Positions 17,206-19,573 of a stretch of 64,000 bases of DNA are shown here, one piece after another. Made by a program: the position numbers and the translations under genes. The stretch is taken from NCBI GenBank assembly GCA_020050835.1, contig JAGVKB010000118.1, positions 1 through 64,000 on the forward strand, in the 5' to 3' direction. The notes under the pieces were generated by a model. It was not told where the DNA came from. It was given only the letters and a program-made list of their open reading frames with translations, and did no database searches. Position 1 is the stretch's first letter; the number at the start of each line of letters is the position of its first letter. Origin of the DNA: Candidatus Obscuribacterales bacterium (GTDB lineage Bacteria > Cyanobacteriota > Vampirovibrionia > Obscuribacterales > Obscuribacteraceae).

Positions 17206-17849
17206 AATTCAATTTCCTCGCTTGATCACACCAGCTGACACTCTTTAAATCGATATACAAGTTCGACATTACCGGGCAGTCAATCTAGTAAAGTATCCCA
17301 TAAATCGCCGGGGAGCGACTGATCCGCCGTGTTGCATCCTGAAAGGCTCACTGGTTCGCGGAGATCTTTTCGACCGGCTCTACATGTCTCCGGAGTAAAG
17401 AGTAATACCAACTCGGATCGCATTTGCCCTGTTAGCCAAAGATAAGTTGGTGCAAAGCCGTACGTGTCCTCTTATGCGGAATCTGTGCAATCACATGCGT
17501 TGAATCGACCATGTGCCTATTACTACCACGACCAGGAAATACAAACTTGATGTTTCTCGGTTGTTTTTCATAGCGTCGTTTTAGGAGTTGAAAGACAGAG
17601 GGCTGTTCTCACTTCCGGGATAAGTGATCTCTATTCGATCACGCAAATGGCTTTTCTGTCCTCTTCTGTAATGCCTGATGCTGTGCGGCTTGCGGAGAGT
17701 ATTTCCGAACCTGAAAATTCTATGCCTCTTCCGTGTATGCCCAGTGTAGGCATTGGGACAATTTCTTTGTTGTGACAGCATCACCATATGTGATATCACA
17801 CTAGAGTTTATCGATAGCTTTGAGAAACGAAAAGACATCTCATGTTACT
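17206..17849. other. Non-coding flank of the mobile island
   Basis: No convincing gene; short open frames lack ribosome sites and recognisable sequence. A TTGACT hexamer lies at 17277-17282 on the minus strand, in promoter position for the DUF2252 gene. At 17472-17495 CTTATGCGGAATCTGTGCAA resembles the half-site next to the palindrome at 18861-18898, which is followed by the same GTGCAA, and could be a decayed second recombination site. Confidence 0.4.
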
Positions 17850-17923
17850 TCAAATCAATGATATCAGGACCGAGGAACTTCAACAAATGCTCAGATATCT
17901 GCGGCATTCTCCCGCGGCAGTCG
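17850..17923. repeat. Direct repeat copy A (integrase 3'-end remnant)
   Basis: About 74 bp, similar to 18527-18598 in the same orientation and sharing the blocks TCAATGATATCAG, CCGAG, AAATGCTCAGA and GCAGTCG. On the minus strand it encodes ISEHLLKFLGPDIIDLK and a stop. It begins within 2 nt of the toxin stop codon, so the toxin-antitoxin pair is bounded on this side by the repeat. Confidence 0.7.
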
Positions 17924-17924
17924 C

Positions 17925-18230
17925 TCAAGATTTGTCGCTGCTTCGAAAAACGTTTCTGAAGTTACGCGCACCGTGTAGCACTCGTACTGCTAACAACTGC
18001 TTCCCTTGCATCCTGTACGCGATGACATAACTGCTAACCGTCCAAAATAGATATCGCTTATCTTGCACATCTAGCCGTCCATGACCCATGCCGGGAAATT
18101 GCGCTAGCAGTTGGATAGTGCTATGGATCAACTCATCGAGGCGGCTAGCAGCAGTCGGATCGTCTTTCGCGATGTAGTCACAGATCGCTTCAACATCCGC
18201 GTTAGCGCGGTGAGAGATGCGATAGGTCAT
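17925..18230 (-). CDS. ParE/RelE-type toxin
   Basis: 101 aa, the usual size of this family. MTYRISHRANADVEAICDYI with FPGMGHGRLD and a C-terminal VLHGARNF block are typical of ParE-like toxins of the RelE/ParE superfamily. ParE members target DNA gyrase while RelE members cut mRNA; which applies here cannot be decided. The start overlaps the antitoxin stop by 4 nt, in the usual antitoxin-first order. The stop codon coincides with the edge of a direct repeat, which suggests that the module arrived as a cassette. Confidence 0.85.
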   Translation of the reverse strand: MTYRISHRANADVEAICDYIAKDDPTAASRLDELIHSTIQLLAQFPGMGHGRLDVQDKRYLFWTVSSYVIAYRMQGKQLLAVRVLHGARNFRNVFRSSDKS

Positions 18231-18487
18231 GAATTCTTCTTGGAAGCGCGACGCGTCTTTCTAAGGCGAAAGGCCTCTTCCCCGTCTAATGTTCTGTCTT
18301 CCTTAATGCTCTGCTCGCCCTCAGCCAGAAGTTCGTCCAACTCTCCCGGAACAAAGTCTCCAAATCGTTCCTGTTGATCGAGAGTCAGCAAAGCGGCGGC
18401 CACGACATCTTCAGCAGTTGCATACCGACCCGATTTCACCCGTTCTTCTATGAGCTTTTGTAATTTGGGGTCCAGAGAAAGGTTCAT
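18227..18487 (-). CDS. ParD-type antitoxin
   Basis: 86 aa. It starts with MNLSLDPKLQKLIEERVKSG and YATAEDVVAAAL, the ribbon-helix-helix DNA-binding region of ParD/CopG antitoxins, followed by a charged C-terminus that would bind the toxin. It is expected to repress its own promoter with the toxin. Its ribosome site (GGAG) lies inside the last codons of the integrase remnant that ends 6 nt upstream, so the module may rely on transcription from outside or from within that remnant. Confidence 0.85.
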   Translation of the reverse strand: MNLSLDPKLQKLIEERVKSGRYATAEDVVAAALLTLDQQERFGDFVPGELDELLAEGEQSIKEDRTLDGEEAFRLRKTRRASKKNS

Positions 18488-18493
18488 TGGTGA

Positions 18494-18860
18494 TTACTCC
18501 ATGTGCTCTGAATTCACAGGTTCCATCAAGTCAATGATATCAGCTCCGAGAAGCTTCAGTAAATGCTCAGAAATCTTTGCCATGTAAACCCGCAGTCGTG
18601 CGACGTTCACCACAACATACGGTGTGTCTCCGACCTTAACTTTCCGATTGGTGAGCAGCGCATACAGAAAGTCACTGAGTGGGAGGCAGTGCTCAATTTA
18701 ATTTTTGGAGCCCTCCGCTCTGACTGTCAGTGCCTTTCCCTCAAAATCCATATCAGACCAACGGAGAGTAGCAGCTTCATTTCTTCTCAATCCTGACAGC
18801 ATGAGAAAGACCAGATAGTCCCGGACTGTTTTCTGCCTCAAAGACATGACTGCTCGGTAC
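18494..18860 (-). pseudogene. Broken tyrosine recombinase (phage-integrase family)
   Basis: On the minus strand the frame reads WYRAVMSLRQKTVRDY, then LMLSGLRRNEAATLRWSDMD, the box I region of tyrosine recombinases with the first catalytic Arg. It is stopped by TAA after EGSKN; the same frame continues with IEHCLPLSDFLYALLTNRK and then KISEHLLKLLGADIID. The box II HxxR and the catalytic Tyr are absent, and the N-terminal half is cut off at the palindrome (18861). It is clearly non-functional. Confidence 0.75.
18527..18598. repeat. Direct repeat copy B (within integrase remnant)
   Basis: Second copy of the repeat at 17850-17923, within the 3' part of the broken integrase. The two copies flank the toxin-antitoxin genes on both sides, about 600 bp apart. 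Confidence 0.7.
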
Positions 18861-18898
18861 CAATTCCCCTTATGCCGAGCTCGGCATAAGGGGAATTG
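18861..18898. repeat. Perfect 38-bp palindrome at a recombination junction
   Basis: Two 19-bp arms (18861-18879 and 18880-18898) pair without mismatch or spacer; the centre reads TTATGCCGAGCTCGGCATAA. It forms the exact border between the broken recombinase and the broken adhesin-like gene. TTATG/CATAA half-sites are common in tyrosine-recombinase targets (the dif arms, for example), so this may be a recombination site or a joint of two inverted half-sites. Confidence 0.85.
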
Positions 18899-19236
18899 TG
18901 CAACGGATGTGTCGGAGTGCTTGCACTCAAGGAGATGGTATCGGTTGCTCCACCGCCAGTTACTTTCGCGGTAAAGGATGTTGCATTGTTGGCGGAGGTG
19001 CTGATAGATATGACCGCACTCGTGGATGACGCAGTTACGTTTACATTGCTCATGGTGGTGCCAATGTCCGATGCGAGAGCTTAAGCAATATCCGCTGATG
19101 TGTCACCGGATTGCACGGTGTAGCTGGCGGTTTCTTGACCCTGGGGAGTCGTTCCAGTTAGTGAAGCATCATATGCGGTGATGGAGACAACGTCTCCTGC
19201 AAGGGGCACTCCGCCTATGTATGCGTTAACGGTAGT
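18899..19236 (-). pseudogene. Fragment of a large adhesin-like repeat protein
   Basis: On the minus strand the frame encodes VNAYIGGVPLAGDVVSITAY, QETASYTVQSGDTSADIA and, after an internal TAA at 19081-19083, VNVTASSTSAVISISTSANN. This Thr/Ser/Val-rich beta pattern with YTVxSGDT is typical of one repeat module of giant surface proteins. It is cut by a stop at 19237-19239 and by the palindrome at 18898, so only one module survives. Confidence 0.6.
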
Positions 19237-19573
19237 TTATAGGGAAACCAGAAAGCATGATTGCCACGGTCTCCGCTCACTTAATCGAGCACACGAATCA
19301 ATCTTGAGTGCCGTCGGCACTCAATGCTCATTGCCAATAATGGGATGCCTGGCTACCGCAATAATGTCAGCGCAAAAAATTGTGCAACTTAGAAGACGCG
19401 CATAAAACCATCGAAGCAGAAGACCGTGTTGCTGTAAACCAGCAGAAGTGTATTCCGACTACTCTATGTAACGAGGCTTGAAATTTGTAGCCAATAGTGT
19501 TAACAAACTTGAACGGAATTGCTTCTGCGCCTGCGCTGGCGCGAAAATTGACTATCAGCAGAGGCGAAATCGA
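19237..19573. other. Intergenic flank with a 21-bp palindrome
   Basis: No gene seen. TTGAGTGCCG-T-CGGCACTCAA at 19304-19324 is a perfect inverted repeat with 10-bp arms; no T run follows. It may end transcription into or out of the degraded island. Confidence 0.5.

Follow-up and report, generated by a model that had tools for sequence, protein, structure and literature searches.

How did two unrelated truncated genes come to meet at a perfect palindrome in the 64,000-nucleotide stretch of DNA analysed here (hereafter, the window)? The palindrome occupies positions 18861-18898 and consists of CAATTCCCCTTATGCCGAG followed directly by CTCGGCATAAGGGGAATTG, confirming the sequence-only reading of this DNA, which had described it as free of spacers and mismatches. 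At 38 bp, it far exceeds every other spacerless perfect palindrome in the window, the runner-up being 18 bp; approximately 2e-7 such palindromes would be expected by chance (64000 x 4^-19), and the 7.0-Mb genome assembly contains a single copy. The central 20 bp, denoted P, have the form TTATGCCGA-NN-TCGGCATAA and correspond to the terminal palindrome of RIT ("recombinases in trio") elements, which have been described in C. metallidurans (PMC2864759). The features of the locus are as follows:

18861-18898, no strand: perfect 38-bp palindrome, comprising P, the inverted hexamers and 3 more matching bases.
18870-18889, no strand: P core, TTATGCCGA-GC-TCGGCATAA, two back-to-back RIT half-sites; the same 20-bp core is found at RIT ends and is enriched in IMG/VR.
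18864-18869, plus strand: left hexamer TTCCCC, putative crossover spacer towards the integrase half, from the 6-bp spacing rule at 104 RIT-bearing sites.
18890-18895, plus strand: right hexamer GGGGAA, putative crossover spacer towards the RHS half, a perfect inverted copy of the left hexamer.
18514-18863, minus strand: target half 1, remnant of a tyrosine integrase of the P4 type (PF00589, E 1e-7) whose homologues in relatives are intact.
18896-19245, minus strand: target half 2, truncated RHS/YD-repeat gene, with 66% nucleotide identity to locus L199 and homology to L200.

The proposed position of the palindrome between two truncated genes was borne out, with the C-terminal part of a tyrosine integrase on one side and the N-terminal side of an RHS/YD-repeat gene on the other. 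The integrase fragment (GNWYRAVMSL..., running on the minus strand from 18863 down to ~18514) lacks the N-terminal part and carries an internal deletion and a stop codon. In the WYRAV region, to which the comparison with homologues L205-L233 was confined, intact genes of relatives read ..HKLxxWYQAVxSL where the window has GNWYRAVMSL, and the Arm-DNA-bind_3 and PF00589 domains of the intact homologue L205 identify the gene as P4-type. The cut in the window falls in this WYRAV region; other loci are hit at the HxxR box. The RHS fragment (...THPLHN) retains an Ig-like repeat and is missing its C-terminal part, the ORFs of its homologues L199 and L200 extending beyond the cut point. Since homologues of both genes run past the cut, the palindrome marks the meeting point of two unrelated truncated genes, and both flanks are conserved coding sequence right up to the hexamers. 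An RHS fragment at the start of contig C64 of the same assembly was rejected as the missing half, being a different paralogue. Nearby, a ParD/ParE toxin-antitoxin pair (17925-18487, minus strand; PF03693 and PF05016) sits between 70-bp repeats of the integrase tail (17838-17907 and 18514-18583) that are 79% identical to each other, as if it had been brought in with a duplication of that tail, and the segment at 19317-19522 shares 77% identity with C87:8868-9073 of the same assembly.

Surveys of public sequences tie the core to RIT elements. P has 18 matches in IMG/VR, where two shuffled controls of identical composition have 1 apiece, and more than 117 matches across many phyla among the 84,980 bacterial and archaeal genomes searched; about 4 chance sites are expected in 257 Gb. 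Many of the matches on viral contigs adjoin three tandem tyrosine recombinases of ~404, 312 and 329 aa, and the RIT elements beside P are ~3.3 kb long, with terminal repeats TTATGCCGA-N8-TTATGCCGA. An RIT end or half-site lies exactly 6 bp from P at 104 of the 138 distinct sites, and at least 2 Rit-type recombinases are encoded at 52 of the 75 RIT-end sites that have at least 600 bp of flank. Where the flank was sufficient, P was located about equally often at the ritA end (23 sites) and the ritC end (24 sites), and the arrangement of P and hexamers recurs in RIT elements on finished plasmids. Nine solo P sites with a poor hexamer match (L019, L072, L076, L078, L111, L124, L138, L143 and L145) are probably due to chance.

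The same survey uncovered several relatives of these elements. Four loci, namely L068, L084, L286 (2223-5011) and L287 (4573-5011), have RIT ends and P with no recombinase match or annotation; at ~0.4, 1.3, 2.8 and 0.44 kb, respectively, they are apparently non-autonomous RIT derivatives. At L018/L027, L051 and L064, P is joined at exactly 6 bp to another end, which starts with TTGnACTAA followed by a CCGCT stretch. An RIT-related element at L264 (3533, 6942) has a matching altered palindrome, TAATCACGA-GC-TCGTGATTA, a related element at L266:1979 carries the TTATTCCGA palindrome, and another at L267:1-40 ends in TTATGTGCC half-sites, which suggests that P and RIT ends change together. In IMG/VR, the variant palindromes TTATTCCGA and TTATGTCGA show no enrichment, with 1 match each.

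Perfect inverted hexamers surround P at 31 of the 104 RIT sites and at 12 of the 34 solo sites, compared with 0.9 and 0.56, respectively, from shuffling, and at RIT sites the inverted match ends at 6 bp. In the window, the flanks match over 9 bp rather than 6, where the additional 3 bases may be fortuitous, and GGGGAA deviates from the common NNNNCA form. Among 39 complete elements, the hexamer outside P is identical to that at the far end in 19 (a=c), as expected for a 6-bp target duplication. The hexamer inside P, with C and A as its final two bases, resembles target hexamers, as though taken over from an earlier target; in the part of a 2023 comparison that deals with SEs, these elements are given a 6-bp spacer that records previous sites (PMC10214605).

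Removal of the element and joining of the flanks restores DUF3489, tyrosine integrase, IS256 and IS200 transposase genes, as recognized by Pfam, as well as IS21 and ritC genes, as judged by eye (the element at L126:3538 is inserted in ritC of another RIT element). An ORF-continuity test of the empty sites did not discriminate (29/32 versus 28/32 with shuffled partners) and was replaced by gene-family tests. With DUF3489 genes as targets, P adjoins the C-terminal half in 13 cases to 0 and RIT ends adjoin the N-terminal half in 17 to 0; for tyrosine-recombinase targets, the corresponding counts are about 15 to 0 and 5 to 0. Because these counts are without exceptions, every joint in both target families follows one rule, whereby a left type (target left or P) is connected through a hexamer to a right type (target right or RIT end).

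Public sequences contain four classes of joints. The usual insertion (class i) has the order target-left, RIT, P, target-right. In class ii, represented by L283, RIT stands between the left (N-terminal) halves of two different DUF3489 genes, with no P. In class iii (L092, L095 and L132), a single RIT is bordered by P on either side, with right halves beyond; a reading of these loci as two RIT copies each was rejected, as they are single elements. In class iv (L198 and L063), P stands alone and joins two different integrase genes by their right halves. L198 comes from a genome of the same bacterial family as the window, has the same GC centre, and both of the integrases that it joins are broken. 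Recombination between the P-hexamer-RIT joint of an inserted element and a second target would be expected to yield classes ii and iv as its pair of products; no matched pair of the two was seen in any single genome.

The window palindrome fits class iv on account of its inverted hexamers, the broken coding sequence on both sides and the lack of an RIT end. The half-site TTATGCCGA of the RIT terminal repeats is exact in both arms of P, the 6-bp spacers (TTCCCC and GGGGAA) are in place and lead into the broken genes, and the right half of the integrase is thereby joined to the right half of the RHS gene with the hexamer GGGGAA on both sides. The terminal repeat TTATGCCGA-N8-TTATGCCGA is absent from either side of the palindrome, no recognizable ritA-ritB-ritC trio is present in the window or in the assembly to which it belongs (95.7% complete), where recombinase matches to RIT are limited to generic integrases of ~30% identity, and no reciprocal RIT-bearing product was found in this genome. 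Relatives from the same family (L195, L197 and L265) do carry the trio, and the element behind the joint has probably been lost or resides in the missing part of the assembly. We thus consider it quite likely that the palindrome is a recombination joint of the RIT type, one that lacks the RIT element itself. The earlier suggestion of a recombination joint is accordingly well supported, as RIT attachment joints have this core at this distance from the flanks.

We propose the following scheme. Left halves would be supplied by the left side of a target or by either end of the 20-bp palindrome P, and right halves by the right side of a target or by either end of the RIT body. With right-type ends at both termini, the RIT body would need P, which is left-type at both termini, as an adaptor, so that P is presumably required for insertion. 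The product would have the order target-left, RIT, P, target-right, with P at either the ritA or the ritC end. Later recombination of the internal P-hexamer-RIT joint with a second target would strand P between two right halves and, in the same event, place RIT between the two left ones. Most likely, the window joint arose in this way from the P-hexamer-RIT junction of an RIT that is now absent, with a second target as the partner. The core, the spacing, the symmetry of the hexamers, the joint rule with its four classes and the truncation of both genes are read directly from sequence, whereas the order of events and the making of this joint by RitABC are inferred.

An RIT element inserted together with P in one gene might instead have been excised, leaving P and a hexamer behind, with the different flanking genes resulting from an unrelated later rearrangement. 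Such a scar is to be expected in principle, since in canonical insertions P and the hexamer adjoin the RIT body and would remain upon its loss. However, the flanks of the window palindrome belong to two different genes and yet display exact inverted hexamers directly at P, and an unrelated later break would not hit the second side at precisely this 6-bp distance from P. We therefore regard an excision footprint as unlikely. Much less probable still is that the palindrome is the attachment site of the adjacent broken integrase, as the sequence-only reading had it. Although the palindrome directly adjoins the tyrosine-recombinase fragment, its core is tied across many phyla to RitA/B/C elements, and tyrosine-recombinase genes serve as targets elsewhere. 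As the palindrome interrupts the neighbouring P4-type integrase gene, and such genes are targets in other loci, the broken integrase is most probably a target rather than the enzyme. The degraded half-site proposed at 17472-17495 (TTATGCGGA, one mismatch) does not exceed chance, considering that the window has 24 one-mismatch half-sites outside the palindrome arms, compared with 1-30 for shuffled motifs.

An RNA-level role is extremely improbable. Strong folding of the stem (-40.2 kcal/mol for 85 nt, z -4.9) would suit a transcription terminator or another intergenic hairpin element, but no T-run follows the stem, which is absent from the terminator scan, has no Rfam match and lies inside broken coding sequences; moreover, a hairpin RNA would leave the hexamer and spacing rules at the DNA level unexplained. 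Nor is there much to recommend an assembly fold-back artefact, which had been named as a possible refutation. Misassembly can create perfect palindromes, and this assembly is fragmented (154 contigs), yet the flanks differ beyond 9 bp and come from different genes, and the same core and spacing rules recur in finished plasmids and many independent assemblies, making such an origin of the palindrome most implausible. The preferred reading thus remains that of an RIT-type joint without its element.

Telomere-resolvases (protelomerases) are relatives of tyrosine recombinases that act at perfect palindromes, but P in the window lacks a hairpin telomere context. Hairpin replication was also rejected as the origin of P, since at 41 of the 104 RIT sites the centre of P lacks self-complementarity. 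To our knowledge, GInt islands and Tn554 have no P-like 20-bp palindrome. In the sections of the 2023 comparison devoted to them, these elements resemble RIT in the concerted action of multiple tyrosine recombinases or related proteins and differ in their gene sets and ends (PMC10214605). SEs share with RIT joints the inverted terminal motifs, the 6-bp spacer and the hexamer recording the previous site, but encode intA-tfp-intB-srap, and the sections describing them make no mention of a palindromic adaptor (PMC10214605). RIT elements themselves (PMC3414803, PMC2864759) have in common with the window the core half-site, the 6-bp spacing and the palindrome flanking their ends, whereas the window has no RIT genes, and its solitary palindrome separates two broken genes.

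RIT is a widespread but poorly understood mobile element, and the way in which a trio of tyrosine recombinases mobilizes a single element has been an open question; the 2023 comparison enters RIT as not tested for target specificity, for the formation of empty sites and for movement (PMC10214605). RIT elements were already known, but P as a two-ended adaptor seems to be undescribed. A literature search with the half-site strings yielded only unrelated-looking titles among the matches listed. The joint rule provides a concrete, testable scheme, which states where exactly the element ends, in which hexamer the crossover would fall, what the palindrome would do and which side products are to be expected, and the 20-bp P offers a marker for finding RIT elements, gene-poor derivatives and scars in raw sequence. 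On balance, we lean slightly towards the view that RIT transposons are two-part elements, in which a gene-bearing body with identical right-type ends would depend on a separate 20-bp, two-ended, left-type adaptor enabling insertion through a single directional type of joint. That adaptor may stay behind as a hub joining unrelated genes and thereby rearrange genomes.
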